Part shown: in pieces, positions 6,051 through 56,397 of the stretch
Position numbering within the stretch: position 1 is the stretch's first letter
Layout: the number at the start of each line of letters is the position of its first letter
Assembly: GCF_022549215.1 (NCBI RefSeq)
Contig: NZ_JAKZFC010000002.1
Span: 186,001-250,000 of the forward strand
Reading direction: 5' to 3'
Source: Solibacillus palustris
GTDB lineage: Bacteria > Bacillota > Bacilli > Bacillales_A > Planococcaceae
Length of the DNA stretch: 64,000 nucleotides
Program-made: the position numbers and the translations under genes
The notes under the pieces: model-generated
Told to the model about the DNA's origin: nothing
Database searches by the model: none
What the model saw: the letters and a program-made list of their open reading frames with translations, nothing else

Positions 6051-7310
6051 ATGATTACAATTGAAACAGCGCAGCAATTCGATAACGAAGATTCGTTAAA
6101 TAGCTATGCAGAAGAATTTTATAAACAACCCGGTCAAATTTATTTTGATGGAAACTCACTTGGTTTATTATCAAAGCGTTCGGAATTAAGTGTACTCACA
6201 TTATTACATTCATGGAAGGAACATGGTATTGATGGTTGGACTTCTGGAGACTACCCGTGGTTTTATTTATCGGAAAATTTAGGGGATCTTTGTGCACCGC
6301 TTGTTGGTGCGAAAAAAGAAGAGGTTGTATTAACAGGTTCTACAACGACGAACTTGCACCAGCTGCTTTCAAGTTTTTTCAAACCAACTGAAACCAAAAA
6401 TAAAATTTTAGCAGACGAACTAAATTTCCCGTCGGATTTATATGCAATTCAGAGTCAGCTTACGCTACATGATTTGTCAAAAAACCATATGAAATTAGTG
6501 AAATCACAGGACGGGCAAACGTTAACTACAAAAAACATTATTGAGGCAATGACGGATGATGTTGCCGTGGCGGTATTGCCAGCGGTCCTTTATCGCAGTG
6601 GTCAAGTCCTCGATTTACAGGAGATTACGAAGGCTGCACATGAAAAAAATATAATTGTTGGCTTTGATTTATGTCATTCAATCGGTTCAATTCCACACAA
6701 GCTCCATGACATTGGTGCGGACTTTGCTTTTTGGTGTAATTATAAGCATTTAAACGGTGGGCCAGGTTCCGTTGCTGGGCTATTTGTGCATGAAAAACAT
6801 TTTGGCACTGCACCTGGCTTAGCGGGTTGGTTTGGATCGAAAAAAAATAAACAATTTGATTTAGACATTACATTAACGCAATCAAGCGACGCGGGGGCAT
6901 ATCAAATTGGCACGCCACATGTATTAAGTTTAGCGCCTATTATAGGCTCACTTGAGTTGTTTAGTGAAGTAGGGATAGATGCTATACGTGAAAAATCACT
7001 GAAGTTAACCCAATTTATGATGGATTGTCTTGAACAGGAAATTCCAAATAGCTTCACTTTCGGCAACCCACTAGATCATTCTCGTGGCGGGCATTTATTT
7101 TTAGTTCATGATGAGGCAGCACGAATCTGTAAGGCTCTAAAAGGTGAAGGAGTTATTCCTGATTTCCGTGCACCGAATGGCATTCGTTTAGCGCCGGTTG
7201 CGTTATATAATTCATTTGCAGAAGTGTGGCAAGCTGTTCAAATTTTAAAACGCATTATGCATGAGAAAGTGTATGAATCATTTGAAAATAAACGAGATGT
7301 TATTGCATAA
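6051..7310 (+). CDS. kynU: Kynureninase
   Basis: A PLP-dependent enzyme that cleaves L-kynurenine to anthranilate and L-alanine. The 419 residues have the family length. Visible motifs are [10 protein letters not shown] near the N-terminus, TGSTTTNLH (phosphate cup), the aspartate in [10 protein letters not shown] and the PLP-binding lysine K232 in [14 protein letters not shown]. The C-terminal small domain has the RGGHLF and [10 protein letters not shown] motifs. AGAGGGTGATTCG precedes the ATG. It is the first gene of an operon with kynA, an NSS transporter and kynB, together the full tryptophan-to-anthranilate route. Confidence 0.96.
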
Positions 7311-7322
7311 GGAGGAAATTTG

Positions 7323-8180
7323 ATGGACAAAAAATCGATTTCAGACTTAGAACAAAAAATCAGTGCGGAAAAAGGCATTCATACCGACTTTAAAAATGAT
7401 ATGACGTATGGCGAGTATTTAGGGTTAGATGCCATATTATCGAGTCAAAAGCGCTTATCAGAGCATCATGATGAAATGTTGTTTTTAATTATTCATCAAG
7501 TAAGCGAGCTATGGATGAAGCTTATAATCCATGAATTACAGGCTGCCATTACAACAATTCAGCAAGGGAACATGCAACCTGCGTTCAAAATGCTCGCTCG
7601 TGTATCAAAAATCCAGCATCAAATTATTCAAGCATGGGATGTTCTTGCAACGATGACACCTGCTGAATATTTACAGTTCCGTGATTCGCTCGGAAAAGCT
7701 TCAGGATTTCAAAGCTATCAATACCGCCTAATCGAATTTGCACTTGGCTATAAAAGTAAGCATATCTTAAAAATTTATGAAAAAGATCAAGCGATATTAA
7801 ACGAATTAAAACAGGCCTATGAAGCGCCAAGTATATACGATGTAGCGATTGAAGCGCTCGTAAAAGCAGGGTTGGAAATAAATCCAGCATTGATTAATCG
7901 TGATTTTTCTGTAGTATATAGTGGTGACGATTCCGTTGCGGCAGCCTGGAAAACTGTGTATGAAAATATCGATACCTATTGGGATTTATACCAATTGGCA
8001 GAAAAGTTAGTAGATATTGAAGATGCATTACAGCAATGGCGCTTCCGTCATATGAAAACGGTTGAGCGTATTATTGGTTTTAAAATAGGCACTGGTGGCT
8101 CCTCTGGTGTGAACTATTTACGCCAAGTGCTTGATCATCGTTTTTTCCCAGAGCTTTGGGATTTACGAACAACATTATAG
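7323..8180 (+). CDS. kynA: Tryptophan 2,3-dioxygenase
   Basis: A haem dioxygenase that opens the indole ring of L-tryptophan to N-formylkynurenine, the first step of the pathway. The 285 residues carry the conserved helix [17 protein letters not shown] with its histidines, the [11 protein letters not shown] segment, [16 protein letters not shown] (haem-ligand histidine) and the substrate loop [14 protein letters not shown] 7323 is preceded by AAGGAGGAAATTTG. It starts 12 bp after kynU. Confidence 0.97.
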
Positions 8181-30359: not shown

Positions 30360-30917
30360 ATGATCTCAGTAAACGACTTCCGTACAGGTTTAACGATTAT
30401 CGTAGACGGTAACTTATTCCGCGTACTAGAATTCCAACACGTAAAACCAGGAAAAGGTGCAGCATTCGTTCGTTCAAAATTACGTAACCTACGTAATGGT
30501 AACGTAACAGAAAAAACGTTCCGTGCAGGTGAAAAAGTAGAAAAAGCGATGATTGATAACCGCAAAATGCAATACTTATATGCACAAGGTGACGAGCATG
30601 TGTTCATGGACATGGAATCTTATGACCAAACAACTTTAGCGGAAGCTCAAATTCAAGATGAGTTATTATACTTATTAGAAAACATGGAGCTACACATCCA
30701 ATCTTACCAAGGTGAATTAATTGGTATCGAGTTACCAAACACAGTAACTTTAGAAGTTGCTGAAACGGAGCCAGGTATTAAAGGTGATACAGCTTCAGGT
30801 GGTACAAAACCGGCGAAAATGGAAACAGGCTTAATCGTAAACGTACCATTCTTCGTAAACCAAGGCGACAAATTAATCATCAACACAACTGAAGGCTCTT
30901 ACGTATCACGTGCGTAA
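30360..30917 (+). CDS. efp: Translation elongation factor P
   Basis: EF-P (185 residues) binds between the P and E sites and rescues ribosomes stalled at polyproline. Three beta-barrel domains are present. The tip loop [17 protein letters not shown] carries the conserved lysine that is modified in B. subtilis. GGAGGAAATAACTC precedes the ATG 17 bp after pepP. Codon use is even and highly regular (many GTA/CGT/AAC), consistent with high expression. A strong terminator follows, ending the aroQ-pepP-efp unit. Confidence 0.98.
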
Positions 30918-30925
30918 TTGATTAA

Positions 30926-30966
30926 AGATAGAAATGCTGTGTCATTCGGCATTTCTATCTTTTTTT
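30926..30966 (+). terminator. Terminator after efp
   Basis: AGATAGAAATGC at 30926-30937 is the exact complement of GCATTTCTATCT at 30949-30960, followed by TTTTTTT. Confidence 0.9.
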
Positions 30967-31079: not shown

Positions 31080-32081
31080 ATGATTACAAAATTTCAATTA
31101 GTAAAACCAATTATCCAAGCACCGATGGCAGGAATTACTACACCTGCATTTGTTGCAGCGTGTAGCGAAGCGGGTACGTTAGGTTCAATCGGGGCAGGCT
31201 ATTTAAATGGCGTAGAAACACTAGATTTTATTCGGGCAGTAAAGGAGCTTACAGACAAGCCTTTTAGTGTCAATTTATTTATACAAGAAGAGCCACGAAT
31301 TGATATTAATATTTTACAAGAGGCACGCGGGGCATTGCAGCCTATCTATGAAGAATTAGGGATTCCAGATACACAGCGTGTTGTATCAACAGAAGTGCTT
31401 GAAGGGCAAGTGCAAGCTATATTAGATGAAGGAGTAAGAATCGTATCATTTACGTTTGGTTTGCCTTCTGCAGAAGTAATTACTCGTTTGAAAAATAACG
31501 AAGTGTACTTAATTGGTACAGCAACAACGGTAGAAGAAGCTGAAGCTGTACAACAAGCTGGGTTAGATGCAGTTGTTGTACAAGGTTGTGAAGCTGGGGG
31601 ACATCGTGGCTCATTCACAGAATCAATTGAGTTAATCTCAACAGTCGAGCTCGTAGCAGGTGCAAAGGAAAAACTAACGATCCCTGTTATTGCCGCGGGT
31701 GGTATTATGACGAAAGAGCATGTCGAGCAAATGTTTAGCAGAGGTGCAGATTATGTTCAAATTGGAACAGCATTATTAACTGCACATGAATGTGATGCGA
31801 GTGACACTCATAAGAATGCGATTATTAATTCTGAACAACAGTCAACTACTTTAACAAAAGCATTTACAGGTAAATATGCACGCGGCTTAAAAAACAAATT
31901 TACAGAACAGCTGCAAAATGCTGTTGTAGCGCCATATCCAATACAGCATTATTTAACATTACAAATCCGCAAAGAAAGCGCCATTCAAAATAAACCTGAA
32001 TATTTATCACTTTGGATGGGCGAAAACAGTTATTTAGCAAAGAAAGCATCGGTACAGGAAATTATTGATAGTTTATTTTAA
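31080..32081 (+). CDS. Nitronate monooxygenase-like flavoprotein (possible FabK relative)
   Basis: A 333-residue TIM-barrel flavoprotein. IIQAPMAGITTPAFVAACSE at the N-terminus, the histidine motif QGCEAGGHRGSF near residue 175, and the FMN phosphate-binding IPVIAAGGIMTKEHVEQMFSRGADYVQIGTA are typical of nitronate monooxygenases. Enoyl-ACP reductase FabK has the same fold and cannot be fully excluded. It has its own terminator at each side, so it is an independent unit. It occupies the place where spoIIIAA and spoIIIAB stand in B. subtilis, between efp and spoIIIAC. Confidence 0.85.
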   Translation: MITKFQLVKPIIQAPMAGITTPAFVAACSEAGTLGSIGAGYLNGVETLDFIRAVKELTDKPFSVNLFIQEEPRIDINILQEARGALQPIYEELGIPDTQRVVSTEVLEGQVQAILDEGVRIVSFTFGLPSAEVITRLKNNEVYLIGTATTVEEAEAVQQAGLDAVVVQGCEAGGHRGSFTESIELISTVELVAGAKEKLTIPVIAAGGIMTKEHVEQMFSRGADYVQIGTALLTAHECDASDTHKNAIINSEQQSTTLTKAFTGKYARGLKNKFTEQLQNAVVAPYPIQHYLTLQIRKESAIQNKPEYLSLWMGENSYLAKKASVQEIIDSLF

Positions 32082-32092
32082 TAGAATTCTTT

Positions 32093-32133
32093 AAGCTGAA
32101 TGGAAAGTTAATTACTTTTCATTCAGCTTTTTT
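32093..32133 (+). terminator. Terminator after the nitronate monooxygenase gene
   Basis: AAGCTGAATGGAAAG at 32093-32107 pairs with CTTTTCATTCAGCTT at 32115-32129, with T runs following. It separates this gene from spoIIIAC, so the sporulation operon needs its own promoter in the next 50 bases. Confidence 0.85.
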
Positions 32134-32186
32134 GGTCTTAATTTTTTTGGTGTTGCATATAGTTTGTCGTAAAGGAGGAGGGCTTA

Positions 32187-32396
32187 GTGGAACTACAAGA
32201 TGTGCTACGCGTTGCAGGTGTGGGAATTGTGATAGCACTTCTTCATATATTTTTTGAACAGCTTGGGAAAAAGGAATTTTCGTATTTTTTATTTTTCGTT
32301 GCGTATTTGTATATGACAATTGAATTGCTACGTTTTTTGAAACTATTTTTTCAAGAAATCGCCGTGTTTTTTCAGTGGTTAATGGCTATTAGCTAA
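32187..32396 (+). CDS. spoIIIAC: Stage III sporulation protein AC
   Basis: A 69-residue membrane protein with two hydrophobic helices (about 8-25 and 32-65); B. subtilis SpoIIIAC is 68 residues. It begins DVLRVAGVGIVIALLHIFFEQLGKKEF, very like the family. The start is GTG 32187 behind AAAGGAGGAGGGC. It is part of the mother-cell channel complex that, with forespore SpoIIQ, connects the two cells during engulfment. It is the first gene of the operon here: spoIIIAA and spoIIIAB are absent. Its stop overlaps the spoIIIAD start (TAATG). Confidence 0.9.
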   Translation: MELQDVLRVAGVGIVIALLHIFFEQLGKKEFSYFLFFVAYLYMTIELLRFLKLFFQEIAVFFQWLMAIS

Positions 32397-32773
32397 TGAT
32401 TATTCTATTTACTAGTGTTGTATTATTATTGTTGCTTATTCTTATTAAACAATCATTTGAAAAGCTCCATAGTATCATCGTTATTATTATCTTTTTTTTT
32501 ATCATGCAATTTATATTCCGTACTCAAGTTTATCCACTTTGGCAGCAGCTTGCCACATTATTTCATAGCGTTCCCTATAGTAAAGGGTTACTCTATACGG
32601 CGCTGCTATTTTTAAGTAAAGATTTATTTTGTGCCTTATTGAAACAGCTAGAGTATGAGGCTTATGAATCGTTAGTTACACTTTCGGTCCGCTTAACTGT
32701 TATTGTTTATTGGGTTAATGAGTTTGCACCACCATTTCAAACCTTTGTTCAGTTATTAGAGAGGCTATCGTAA
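32396..32773 (+). CDS. spoIIIAD: Stage III sporulation protein AD
   Basis: A 125-residue, four-span membrane protein of the SpoIIIA channel complex, slightly shorter than B. subtilis SpoIIIAD (133). Hydrophobic stretches lie at about 1-18, 22-45, 62-80 and 98-112, the last two separated by LKQLEYEAYESLVTLSVRLT. Position and overlapping TAATG junctions with AC and AE support the call more than sequence identity, which I judge to be modest. Confidence 0.82.
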   Translation: MIILFTSVVLLLLLILIKQSFEKLHSIIVIIIFFFIMQFIFRTQVYPLWQQLATLFHSVPYSKGLLYTALLFLSKDLFCALLKQLEYEAYESLVTLSVRLTVIVYWVNEFAPPFQTFVQLLERLS

Positions 32774-33684
32774 TGGAAGATTTCCTAGGGCTATTAGCTA
32801 CGCCACTTCAATCTATTTTTTCTATTATACTGTTAAGTTTGCTTTATGTAGGAGCTTATTTATTATTTGTTGCACTATTACCAAATGAAATGGCCATTAT
32901 TGAGCAACTTTTTATTTTATTGTTTATTGTAAGCTTTGCACAGCAAGTGATTGATGCATTTGTTGTTCTATATGAATTGATTTCGATTTTGCAAAGTTTT
33001 TTTGTCGCGGTAATCCCAATTCTTTCGGTGATGCTGTTAACGATGCAATCCATTTTTACATTACTCGCCTGGAATCCAATTGTAATTGTTGTAATTCAAT
33101 TTTTATTATTTGTCTCAACAAAGTTGCTCATACCTTCATTGATTATTGCGTTATTACTTGATATATCCACTAAAATTTTCCCTGCAATCTCTTTTGCAAG
33201 AGCGTCAGATTTGCTACGAAGCTCGGTATTAAGTTTTATCATTGCGGCGATAGTAGCGTTAACATCGATATTGACGTTTTCAGGAGCTGCACTCATTCAA
33301 ATAAATGATGCCGTCAAATCCCCAATTAAAAAATTGATCGAACAAAATATCCCACTAATAGGTAATTTAATCGTTGAAGGTTTGTCCTTTTTTCAAAAGT
33401 CTCAATCAATCGTTTCATCCTTTATAGGTGTTTCGTTTTTGGCTGTTGTTTTTAGTGCGGCATTTGCGCCAGCAATTATGTTATTAGGACATGCACTTAC
33501 ATTTAAGGTAATTGGTGCAATCATTGAACCTTTTACGAATACAAGATTGAGTGCATTATTTGATGATGTAGGTAAAACGTTATTTGTTGCATGTGCAGTG
33601 AGTGGTTTATTAGGCTTTGCGATTGTTTTCATTGTACTGCTCTGCATATTTTTTGTACAAACGTCTATTGGAGGGAGTACATGA
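32773..33684 (+). CDS. spoIIIAE: Stage III sporulation protein AE, lacking the N-terminal extracellular domain
   Basis: A 303-residue polytopic membrane protein aligned by eye with SpoIIIAE of B. subtilis (about 399 residues) from the first internal membrane segment onward; the family's signal peptide and first outer domain (about 85 residues) are missing. Retained stretches include VIPILSVMLLTM, IEQNIPLIGNLIVEG and the C-terminal FKVIGAIIEPFTNTRLSALFDDVGKTL. It starts in the stop codon of AD (TAATG), so no longer N-terminus is possible in this arrangement. The stop overlaps the start of the next small gene by 4 bp. Confidence 0.85.
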   Translation: MEDFLGLLATPLQSIFSIILLSLLYVGAYLLFVALLPNEMAIIEQLFILLFIVSFAQQVIDAFVVLYELISILQSFFVAVIPILSVMLLTMQSIFTLLAWNPIVIVVIQFLLFVSTKLLIPSLIIALLLDISTKIFPAISFARASDLLRSSVLSFIIAAIVALTSILTFSGAALIQINDAVKSPIKKLIEQNIPLIGNLIVEGLSFFQKSQSIVSSFIGVSFLAVVFSAAFAPAIMLLGHALTFKVIGAIIEPFTNTRLSALFDDVGKTLFVACAVSGLLGFAIVFIVLLCIFFVQTSIGGST

Positions 33685-33815
33685 TTGAATTATTTTTATT
33701 TGTGTTGTTAGGAAGTAGCCTATTATTTTTTGTTGAGGAAAAGGAATGGCAAACATATGTCAAGTTGGCATTATATATAATTTTTACTACATCGATTGCG
33801 TCACTGTTAGCATAA
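33681..33815 (+). CDS. spoIIIAF: 44-residue membrane peptide in the spoIIIAF position
   Basis: Only 44 residues, with two hydrophobic stretches (about 2-16 and 26-43) joined by the charged turn VEEKEWQTYVK. SpoIIIAF is normally about 200 residues: two N-terminal membrane segments then a soluble ring-forming domain. This peptide could correspond to just the two segments, with the soluble domain gone. GGAGGGAGTAC precedes the ATG, and the ATGA overlap with spoIIIAE shows coupled translation. Identity as AF is from position and topology only. Confidence 0.55.
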   Translation: MIELFLFVLLGSSLLFFVEEKEWQTYVKLALYIIFTTSIASLLA

Positions 33816-33869
33816 GTGGAAGTATACCTTCATACATTATGATGAATTCGATGAGGCAAGGGGGCGCAG

Positions 33870-34256
33870 TTGCTTACAAATGTGGATAAATCACGAGCAA
33901 AACGTCCTTTATTTATAGTTTTCGTATTGATTGTTGTTCTGTCGATTTTCATGGTGATGAGCTTGAGTGGTCAATCTGAACAAACGGATATACCTGAGCA
34001 ACAATTGGCAAAAATATTAAGTGAAATGGAGGATGTTGGACAAGTATTTGTATATTTTCATTATGAACAACAAAAAGAGAAACAGTTTTTAGCTGTTACA
34101 CAACAACAAAACATTACTGGTGTCATTATCGTGGCACAAGGTGCACAAGATGTACATGTTCAGCGGTTATTAAAGCAAACAGTAGGCAATGTACTACAAA
34201 TACCAACGCATCGTATACAAGTGGTCGCGATGCAACCCAAGGAGGAAGCAAAGTGA
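33870..34256 (+). CDS. spoIIIAG: Stage III sporulation protein AG, shortened
   Basis: A 128-residue protein with one N-terminal membrane span (about 13-32, RPLFIVFVLIVVLSIFMVM) and a soluble domain ending GVIIVAQGAQDVHVQRLLKQTV and IPTHRIQVV, which matches the ring-forming end of SpoIIIAG. B. subtilis AG is about 229 residues; the long insert between the beta strands that builds the tall channel barrel is largely missing. The start is TTG 33870 behind AAGGGGGCG. The stop overlaps the GTG start of AH (GTGA). Confidence 0.85.
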   Translation: MLTNVDKSRAKRPLFIVFVLIVVLSIFMVMSLSGQSEQTDIPEQQLAKILSEMEDVGQVFVYFHYEQQKEKQFLAVTQQQNITGVIIVAQGAQDVHVQRLLKQTVGNVLQIPTHRIQVVAMQPKEEAK

Positions 34257-34789
34257 AAGTAAAAAAACGAACAGTGTGGTTCTTTACATTAGCGAGTTTA
34301 GTGGCTGTAATTTCCGTGTTTTATATTTTTGAAGATCGCAATACACCGAATTTATTAAAGGTTTTTACAAATGATACTATTAGTGAAACAGAAATTTTAG
34401 GCGTGAGTCAAGATGGCTCACAAATGGTTACATCAGAAAGTGAGATGTTCCAGCAAATGCGTTTAGAAGCAAGCAATAAACGCAGTCAACTTCGTGAGCA
34501 ATTAACTCAAAAAGTTGCTTCAGCGGAACTTACAGCCGAAGAAAAAAACACAGCATTTAATGAGATGGAGCAGCTAATTAAGTTAGAATCGTCAGAAGCA
34601 ATGCTTGAGATGGTTGTAAAATCTTTAGGCTATGATGATGCACTTGTACGAGTTGAAGATCAGGATGTTAAAGTAACGGTGATGTCAGATGAGGTATCCA
34701 AACAACAGATAAATGAAATTGTCTATACGGTTCTCACTGAAATGGATGAAGATGTAAAAGTAACTGTTAACTACGAGCCTTTCAATTGA
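34253..34789 (+). CDS. spoIIIAH: Stage III sporulation protein AH
   Basis: A 178-residue mother-cell membrane protein whose outer ring domain binds forespore SpoIIQ. The N-terminus KKRTVWFFTLASLVAVISVF matches the family closely. The YscJ/FliF-like domain fills about 60-178 (MFQQMRLEASNKRSQLREQL ... SLGYDDALVRVEDQDVKVTV). B. subtilis AH is 218 residues; the difference is a shorter low-complexity linker. With this ring kept, docking to SpoIIQ should still be possible. It is the last gene of the operon, followed by 194 bp to accB. Confidence 0.92.
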   Translation: MKVKKRTVWFFTLASLVAVISVFYIFEDRNTPNLLKVFTNDTISETEILGVSQDGSQMVTSESEMFQQMRLEASNKRSQLREQLTQKVASAELTAEEKNTAFNEMEQLIKLESSEAMLEMVVKSLGYDDALVRVEDQDVKVTVMSDEVSKQQINEIVYTVLTEMDEDVKVTVNYEPFN

Positions 34790-34983: not shown

Positions 34984-35463
34984 ATGTTCAAAGTTCAAGA
35001 AATTCGTGAAATTATCAAATTAGTGGACGCGTCTTCAATTGACGAGTTCGTGTACGAAGCAGATGGGGCAAAAGTTAAACTAAAAAAGAAAAATGGTGTT
35101 ACTGAAGTTGTAGCTCCTAAAAAAGAAGCAGCACCAGCAGCTGTTGTTCCTGCACCAGCACCAGTAGTAGAAGCACCAAAAGTAGAAGTAGCACCAGCTG
35201 CACCAGTAGCAGATACAGCTGAACTTCATAAAATTACTTCTCCAATGGTTGGTACATTCTATCAATCTCCAAACCCTGATTCTCCGGCATACGTAAAAGT
35301 AGGCGATAAAGTGGGCGATGAGTCAATCGTTTGTATCGTAGAAGCGATGAAATTATTCAACGAAATCGAAGCTGAAATTAAAGGTGAAATCGTAGAAATT
35401 TTAGTAAAAGACGGCCAATTAGTAGAATATGGTCAACCTTTATTCTTAGTTAAAGCTGAATAA
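34984..35463 (+). CDS. accB: Biotin carboxyl carrier protein of acetyl-CoA carboxylase
   Basis: A 159-residue carrier whose biotin is carboxylated by AccC to supply malonyl-CoA for fatty acids. The N-terminal 40 residues are a helical dimerisation region, about 43-80 are an Ala/Pro/Val linker ([15 protein letters not shown]), and about 84-159 form the biotinyl domain with the biotin-accepting lysine in [20 protein letters not shown] precedes the ATG. accC follows after 18 bp. Confidence 0.98.
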
Positions 35464-54847: not shown

Positions 54848-55636
54848 TTGACGAAGGTGAAGATTGCGATTGCTGATGATAATCGTGAATTAGTGAAAAT
54901 GATGGAGATGTATTTTGCAAATCATGCACAGATTGAAGTTGTTGCAACTGCCGCCAATGGAAAAATGTGTATTAAAATGTTAGAAGAGCATACGGTTGAT
55001 GTTTTACTATTAGATATTATTATGCCGCATTTAGATGGTTTAGCTGTTCTGGAAGCAATGTATAATGATGATCGTCATGAGCGCACACAAGTTATTATGC
55101 TGACAGCTTTTGGTCAAGAAGATGTGATGAAACAAGCTGTAAACTTTGGTGCCTCTTATTTTATGCTGAAGCCATTTGAATTTGAGCAACTTGTACAAAA
55201 GATTTTACATTGTGCGAATAAAAAATTAGAGGTAGAAAAACGCCCGCTTGATATAGTTTCGACTGGAACAAAAATCGATCAACGTCAACTTGATTCAACA
55301 ATTACTTCAATTATTAAGGAAATTGGAGTTCCAGCACATATTAAAGGCTATGCTTACTTACGCGAAGCAATTCAAATGGTGTATTACGATATTGAATTAT
55401 TAAGCTCTGTAACAAAAATTTTATACCCAGAAATCGCTAAAAAATTCAACACTACATCCTCACGTGTCGAACGTGCGATTCGTCATGCCATTGAGGTTGC
55501 ATGGAATCGAGGCAGCTATGAGAACATTTCAGAATTGTTTGGCTATACCGTGCACCATATGAAGTCTAAACCAACTAATTCAGAATTCATCGCCATGATT
55601 GCCGATAAGATTCGAATTGAAATGGTTGCAAGTTAA
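54848..55636 (+). CDS. spo0A: Stage 0 sporulation master regulator Spo0A
   Basis: The phosphorelay response regulator that commits the cell to sporulation (262 residues). The receiver domain (about 1-125) has D10/D11, the phospho-acceptor D56 in [12 protein letters not shown] and the lysine in FMLKPFEFE. The effector domain (about 145-262) contains the recognition helix [16 protein letters not shown] and ends [15 protein letters not shown]. The start is TTG 54848 behind AAAGGGGGATTTTG. The gene is intact, but its last 177 bp recur, mutated, at 57906-58082, and no clear terminator follows; both fit an insertion at its 3' end that replaced the last codons. Confidence 0.97.
55460..55497 (+). repeat. 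38-bp direct repeat, left copy (attL-like), within spo0A
   Basis: This stretch, from TCACGTGTCG to TTGAGGT in the recognition-helix codons of spo0A, is repeated without a mismatch at 57906-57943. Beyond it the copies diverge (about 15 mismatches in the next 139 bp by hand count). A perfect core followed by diverged 3' ends is what site-specific integration into a gene's 3' part would leave. Confidence 0.8.
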
Positions 55637-55791
55637 GCGCGGTACAATGCGGTTTGTAAGAATCTTAAGATATGAATTCACTGTATCTATACCAACTAAC
55701 TACTGAATTCATACAACTAATGTTAATTAATTTAAGTAAACTATGAAACACGTTCATTTACGGGGGAATCTCGTTCATGGAGGTGTTTTTT

Positions 55792-56397
55792 TTGAATGAA
55801 TTTGATATAGAGATTGATCGATTTATGTTGGATTGTACTGCGAAAGGATTATCAGTTAAAACATTAAAATCTTATGAACAGACCATAAGGTTATTTGCTA
55901 AATGGATGTTTGTTGAATTTGAAATTGATTCACCTAGACTGGTAAAAGCAGAACATTTAAGAAGCTATATACGTAGTTTGGGAGAACGAGGGAAATATGA
56001 ATGGACTGTCAATGACAATGCCAATAACAATCCAAAAGCTAGAGACGATTATGGAAAGAAAATATCCAATACAACAATAGCCAACTATACACGCAATTTA
56101 AAGGTGTTTTTTGCGTATTTGTATCAAGAACAAGTTATTCGTATCAATCCAATGAAAAACGTCAAGAACGTGAAGCCAGAACGCAAAATGAAGGTAATGT
56201 TAGAAGATAATGAATTGAAACAGTTTTTCCGTGCTTTTGATGTGACGAAATTTGACCAATATCGTGATTGGATGATAGCACAGTTAATATTTGACACAGG
56301 TTCACAAATAGGTGAACTGTTAGACATCCATCTGACGTTCGGAATTTACGCGCAAAATTTTTTTATTTTAGTGGAGACTTTGCATATGGGGAACTAA
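55792..56397 (+). pseudogene. Truncated tyrosine recombinase (phage integrase family)
   Basis: The N-terminal SAM-like core-binding domain is complete (about 5-115: TAKGLSVKTLKSYEQTIRLF, TTIANYTRNLKVFFAYLYQE) and the catalytic domain begins, but it stops after QLIFDTGSQIGELLDI. The expected catalytic arginine of the TGxRIGE motif is glutamine, and the later H-x-x-R and tyrosine parts are absent: about half the enzyme is gone. After LLDI the sequence is unrelated, so a deletion joined it to other DNA. TTG 55792 follows GGAGGTG. It cannot catalyse recombination. It lies 155 bp after the spo0A stop. Confidence 0.82.

Follow-up and report, generated by a model that had tools for sequence, protein, structure and literature searches.

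The SpoIIIA-SpoIIQ complex joins mother cell and forespore. It could secrete with the help of a motor, form a passive pore comparable to a gap junction, or serve as a tether. In Bacillus subtilis, single deletions of spoIIIAA, AB, AE or AG nearly abolish sporulation, and SpoIIIAB resembles the GspF and TadB-TadC membrane proteins of type II/IV systems (PMC2703783, PMC12720343). In C. difficile SpoIIIAA, a Walker B mutation costs ∼3-fold, which is far milder than Walker A loss (PMC4605598). Here, we analyze the spoIIIA operon found in 64,000 nucleotides of the Solibacillus palustris genome (contig NZ_JAKZFC010000002.1, positions 186,001 to 250,000 of the forward strand; hereafter, the window), in which spoIIIAA and spoIIIAB are missing and three further genes are shortened.

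Incomplete spoIIIA operons have been noted in this family before. Galperin et al. (2012) found no AA, AB, AD or AF listed for Lysinibacillus sphaericus C3-41 and distrusted that genome (PMC3533761). A 2021 survey gives AA, AB and AF as missing in spore formers of the Planococcaceae, Solibacillus silvestris among them, and leaves the mechanism to be elucidated (PMC7924749). The headline absence of AA, AB, and "AF" in Lysinibacillus/Planococcaceae is already in print, and the trait is neither peculiar to S. palustris nor new as a fact of gene absence. As far as a term search of both papers goes, what is new here is an AF reduced to its transmembrane (TM) part and under selection, an AG and an AE trimmed in step, a universal AD, an AE that tracks SpoIVA, and the absence of AA in all genomes of the order searched.

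Results

SpoIIIAA was not detected, and SpoIIIAB did not exceed the cut-off, in 200 genomes of the family

The S. palustris genome (4.0 Mb, 42 contigs, 99.98% complete; family Caryophanaceae/Planococcaceae) yielded no SpoIIIAA (TIGR02858): the best match is Rho at 24 bits, while the diverged SpoIIIAE of the family still scores 67-129 bits. SpoIIIAA was likewise found in 0/200 genomes of the family at E 1e-15 and in 0/253 genomes of the order, many of which are a single contig, at E 1e-30. No match to SpoIIIAB (PF09548) rose above the cut-off in 200 family genomes, and the S. palustris genome has none. Weak PF09548 matches below the cut-off (E 1e-5 to 4e-4) occur in three genomes of the family (L032, L033, L034), in open reading frames (ORFs) of 340, 464 and 2955 residues, and are probably due to chance.

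We then considered the place where both genes would be expected. In several genera that have no nitronate monooxygenase (NMO) gene at this site, just 100-300 bp separate efp from spoIIIAC, so no gene could hide there. Within the operon and from efp to accB, 41 loci of the family have no conserved extra gene except the NMO gene in some genera, and we found no conserved candidate for a replacement motor in the neighborhood of the operon. ComGA, the only clear T2SSE (type II/IV-type) ATPase found in the S. palustris genome, sits in a normal comG operon with no link to sporulation and was rejected as an obvious replacement.

Among 250 genomes sampled from the class, 176 carry AE and 162 carry AA. 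Every AE-bearing genome outside the family has AA (161/161) and every one inside lacks it (15/15); a single genome, assembled in 280 contigs (G292), has AA but no AE. Since AA splits by family, its loss is most simply read from these sequences as ancestral to the family and, within the class sample, unique to it.

SpoIIIAF, SpoIIIAG and SpoIIIAE are trimmed

The reduction extends to the genes that remain. Compared with 12 outgroup operons, in which start codons were assigned mechanically and AA and AB measure ∼306-348 and 170-183 residues, AE has 303 residues instead of ∼389-409, with ∼95 N-terminal residues gone, AF has 44 instead of ∼206-262, and AG has 128 instead of ∼193-250.

Each of the 41 family loci has a short AF frame after AE, which in 39 of them spans 44-55 residues with a canonical start. 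In the two remaining loci, both from genus g5 (L056, ∼7145-7310; L063, ∼7251-7420; operon oriented on the + strand), the frame is kept with no ATG, GTG or TTG at the expected start, so that translation may begin at an unusual codon or the arrangement may differ. A profile built from 20 short AFs aligned to positions 9-51 of full-length AF (hhalign 92.7%, E 4e-7), whereas control profiles of AB, AC, AD, AE, AG, and AH each gave <1%. By this profile comparison, the short AF is homologous to SpoIIIAF and corresponds to its predicted N-terminal membrane hairpin. The ring-building soluble domain of SpoIIIAF is gone, and the hairpin alone is left.

SpoIIIAG has been shortened internally. It aligns to outgroup AG (hhalign 98.9%) with two gaps of ∼34 residues: the linker that follows the membrane helix holds one, the ring-building domain the other. 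The predicted structure consists of the helix-strand-strand-helix-strand motif alone, and its loop at residues 66-81 is of low confidence. Residues 39-124 of the model match residues 95-227 of SpoIIIAG (5wc3) with Z 8.8 over 75 aligned residues, and matches to the ring domains of PrgK and FliF and to 5wc3 range from Z 9.2 to 8.8; structural matches of such size can reflect a common arrangement, and the sequence homology to SpoIIIAG is independent of them. The ring-building motif of SpoIIIAG is thus present both by structure (5wc3, Z 8.8) and by hidden Markov model (HMM; E 1e-11).

The other members vary in how far they have diverged. AD is an ORF of 117-127 residues in 41/41 family loci; among 15 homologs scanned, six match PF06686 (SpoIIIAC/AD; best E 1.1e-8), and comparison with outgroup AD by hhalign gave no support (1%). 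AH is close to normal (2.4e-17 against 3uz0, 1.1e-16 against 3tuf) and is the best-conserved member (hhalign 100% against outgroup AH). Its forespore partner SpoIIQ is also present. This SpoIIQ has 219 residues (L118:3949-4608) and scores 175.6 bits, below the equivalog cut-off of 250 bits, while AH is conserved. It may have co-adapted with the reduced complex.

The remaining genes are under selection and accompany sporulation genes

We further investigated whether the trimmed operon is maintained. The ratio of nonsynonymous to synonymous substitution rates (dN/dS; pairwise, Nei-Gojobori, within Solibacillus) is 0.00-0.17 for AC, 0.00-0.27 for AD, 0.01-0.09 for AE, 0.00-0.29 for the 44-residue AF, 0.09-0.37 for AG and 0.01-0.16 for AH. 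These values, mostly <0.2, are comparable with those of the controls accB, efp and NMO, and all frames are intact in 16 Solibacillus loci. The six genes AC-AH are under purifying selection.

The operon also follows the sporulation genes. SpoIIIAE is present in 150 of the 200 family genomes, all of which have a SpoIVA match, and SpoIVA is found in 152. The two genomes with a SpoIVA match and no AE (G038 and G053) have weak matches below the cut-off, one of them with an internal stop, and several genera of the family lack both AE and SpoIVA. This co-occurrence shows that the operon persists in genomes that retain sporulation genes and disappears along with those genes. The genome of S. palustris itself carries Spo0A, SpoIVB, SpoIVA, sigma-G-like genes and further sporulation sigma genes, together with the SpoIID-SpoIIQ-SpoIIID set. 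SpoIIM was found in 0/200 family genomes, a loss which, judged from these searches, means that the engulfment machinery is changed too.

Altogether, this bears out the expectation of the preliminary description of the window, made from its sequence alone, that selection maintains the operon and that it is not in decay: the dN/dS that it proposed to measure is low for all six genes (∼0-0.4, mostly <0.2), and the operon co-occurs with an intact SpoIVA gene. It had named non-sporulating relatives with pseudogenes as what would overturn this view, and Solibacillus is described as a genus forming round endospores (PMC5578834, PMC6971209).

The upstream regions carry a recurrent motif. CATANANT lies 5′ of AC in 34/41 family loci, against 0.94 expected, always 29-35 nt from the start, and 5′ of AG in 29/39 loci, against 2.05 expected; as they come from related loci, these counts are not independent. 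Its shape is that of a sigma-E −10 box. Guillot and Moran reportedly described, in 2007, an internal sigma-E promoter in the B. subtilis spoIIIA operon. The boxes before AC and AG predict transcription in the mother cell under sigma-E.

Organization of the locus

Genes were called from ORFs and HMM profiles. The order is efp, hairpin, NMO gene, hairpin, AC-AD-AE-AF-AG-AH and accB (Table 1), and AC, AD, AE, AG and AH in sequence at the efp-accB place identify the spoIIIA operon. Neighboring frames overlap at AC/AD (TAATG), AD/AE (TAATG), AE/AF (ATGA) and AG/AH (GTGA).

Table 1. Features of the spoIIIA locus and of the spoIVB-spo0A region, in coordinates of the window
Feature	Position	Strand	Basis and remarks
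efp	30360..30917	+	ORF, synteny; upstream flank, precedes the spoIIIA region in most other Bacilli
Terminator-like hairpin 3′ of efp	30924..30962	+	
Nitronate monooxygenase (NMO) family gene	31080..32081	+	PF03060, 292 bits; intervening, outside the complex
Terminator-like hairpin 3′ of NMO gene	32093..32129	+	
Sigma-E-like −10 element CATATAGT	32156..32163	+	31 nt 5′ of AC start
spoIIIAC, 69 aa	32187..32396	+	TIGR02848 E 5e-8; hhalign 97.4% against outgroup AC; first gene of the reduced operon
spoIIIAD, 125 aa	32396..32773	+	Position, length, PF06686 matches in relatives; very divergent
spoIIIAE, 303 aa	32773..33684	+	PF09546, 71 bits
spoIIIAF, 44 aa	33681..33815	+	hhalign; two-helix membrane hairpin alone; overlaps AE stop (ATGA)
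Internal sigma-E-like −10 element CATACATT	33831..33838	+	5′ of AG
spoIIIAG, 128 aa	33870..34256	+	TIGR02830 E 1e-11; ring-building-motif core
spoIIIAH, 178 aa	34253..34789	+	PF12685, 79 bits; well-conserved SpoIIQ partner
accB	34984..35463	+	ORF, synteny; downstream flank as in other Bacilli
spoIVB, 307 aa	53593..54516	+	TIGR02860 E 1.2e-69; intact frame
spo0A	54848..55636	+	TIGR02875, 358 bits (cut-off 200); intact

The preliminary description had proposed an operon devoid of spoIIIAA and spoIIIAB and suggested searching for them in the rest of the genome and in relatives. Neither gene is at the locus, neither was detected elsewhere in a genome that is 99.98% complete, and the wider searches, with AA in 0/253 and AB above the cut-off in 0/200 genomes, agree. 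It rightly saw that only an NMO gene with its own terminators stands between efp and AC. It was also right that the operon begins at AC: the operon proper starts at 32187, and the start it listed, 31080, is that of the NMO gene. The kept genes it named, AC, AD, AE, AG and AH with their overlaps, are as it described, but it passed over the conserved 44-residue AF, and the change is larger than it stated, with AF, AG and AE trimmed and SpoIIM also gone.

Between efp and AC, tblastn finds the NMO gene in genera g1, g14, g15, g18 and g19 only. We rejected it as a functional partner, given its own terminators and the fact that it went undetected at this site in most other genera. Further along the window, SpoIVB matches its model from position 86 onward and scores 235 bits against a cut-off of 305 bits, with an N-terminus shorter than usual. 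Just 3′ of spo0A (55777-56397) lies an apparently truncated tyrosine-recombinase-like ORF of 206 residues, whose C-terminal part seems, judging by the sequence, to be out of frame or lost.

Discussion

The explanation that we favor, with moderate confidence, is a family-wide, ancestral simplification of the SpoIIIA-SpoIIQ complex into a motorless, passive conduit and/or tether. Since the operon is under selection and neither SpoIIIAA nor SpoIIIAB was detected in the genome, the complex would have to work without a dedicated ATPase. The AA-AB module, consisting of a secretion-type ATPase and its GspF-like partner, would have been lost as a unit, together with AF's soluble part and the insertion in AG. 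What strong selection has kept is AC, AD, AE, the hairpin of AF, a ring-building domain of AG pared to its minimum, AH and SpoIIQ. During engulfment, the mother cell would produce this reduced complex, which would work with no SpoIIIAA to hydrolyze ATP. If it is a passive conduit, metabolites could follow their concentration gradients through AC/AD/AE and AG/AH with SpoIIQ; as a tether, it could hold the two membranes together. We give about even weight to the more specific proposal that the family sporulates with a naturally motorless mother cell-forespore channel composed of AC, AD, AE, a TM-only AF, a minimal AG, AH and SpoIIQ.

Several points weigh against a motorless complex. Sigma-G activity in B. 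subtilis depends on the ATPase motifs of SpoIIIAA, and sporulation drops to 0.001-0.003% once AA, AB or AG is deleted (PMC2703783, PMC12720343), so that such a complex has no experimental precedent. The predicted model of AE is poor (predicted local distance difference test 71) and has no match in the PDB, so that its conducting role is putative. Finally, family-based searches are blind to an unrelated ATPase acting in trans. An ATPase from outside the type II/IV secretion family might indeed have replaced SpoIIIAA in trans and keep the complex powered: B. subtilis cannot do without the SpoIIIAA motor, and a gene that such searches would miss could sit beyond the neighborhood of the operon. 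We nevertheless regard this as unlikely, since the 41 loci hold no conserved extra gene between efp and accB bar NMO in some genera, the sole clear T2SSE ATPase belongs to the comG operon, and the concomitant loss of AB, the AG insertion and the AF soluble domain suggests that a module was lost rather than a motor swapped. Between the two options that the preliminary description had offered, passive operation and another motor, the first is the more probable in our view.

The complex could also carry out no transport at all and be kept just to zip the mother cell membrane to that of the forespore, in which case AH and SpoIIQ would be the parts at work. This would provide a function for engulfment and forespore integrity, and it fits with AH being the best-conserved member, with the retention of SpoIIQ, and with the family-wide loss of SpoIIM, after which engulfment may lean more on AH-SpoIIQ as a backup; moreover, the channel model is itself disputed in B. 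subtilis (PMC12720343). A pure AH-SpoIIQ tether needs none of AC, AD and AE, however, and these are under strong purifying selection (dN/dS of AE 0.01-0.09), which makes this alternative rather improbable, if somewhat less so than a motor acting in trans. Several genera without AE and SpoIVA, along with the strong divergence of AD and AE, could evoke a vestigial operon in a lineage losing sporulation. We see very little room for this, as frames are intact in the 16 Solibacillus loci with low dN/dS, AE is present exactly where SpoIVA is intact, and species of the genus form endospores; the dN/dS values and the co-occurrence with SpoIVA led us to discard a decaying operon. It is even harder to credit that AA and AB are present and were missed: the assembly is in 42 contigs and AE and AD are strongly diverged, yet no genome out of 253, many of them single-contig, has AA, the syntenic place is closed, and the best AA match (Rho, 24 bits) falls far below what the diverged AE scores (67-129 bits). 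The 253 genomes and the closed place dispose of concealment by assembly or divergence.

If the family does sporulate with such a motorless channel, export powered by SpoIIIAA at the expense of ATP would not be intrinsic to the complex, and its conducting core would be defined. The family represents a natural deletion experiment, in which the ATPase, its membrane partner and adjoining domains are removed and the rest is under selection. The trimmed operon of Solibacillus, Lysinibacillus, Ureibacillus and related spore formers shows which parts are separable and offers a minimal version for structure determination. Sporulation predictors that demand all eight spoIIIA genes misclassify the whole family.

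Set against the B. subtilis SpoIIIAA-AH/SpoIIQ complex, the complex described here differs by the absence of AA, AB and SpoIIM and by the size of AF (44 versus ∼206 residues), AG (128 versus ∼193-250 residues, without the insertion) and AE (303 versus ∼400 residues). It shares with it the efp-accB place, the order AC-AH, the sigma-E-like boxes, the position of SpoIIQ beside SpoIID and SpoIIID, and an AH domain that can be aligned to 3uz0 and 3tuf. The Planococcaceae and Lysinibacillus spore formers already surveyed are of the same family and have the same losses, with S. silvestris listed among them; these surveys counted AF as lacking throughout and AD as lacking in some species (PMC3533761, PMC7924749), whereas here AD is present in 41/41 loci and AF is conserved as a TM-only protein, with a canonical start in 39 of the 41. 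Among proteins with a ring-building motif (PrgK, MxiJ, EscJ, FliF and SpoIIIAG), the reduced AG is predicted to have a short, low-confidence loop between strands 1 and 2, where SpoIIIAG has an insertion, and to keep the helix-strand-strand-helix-strand core.

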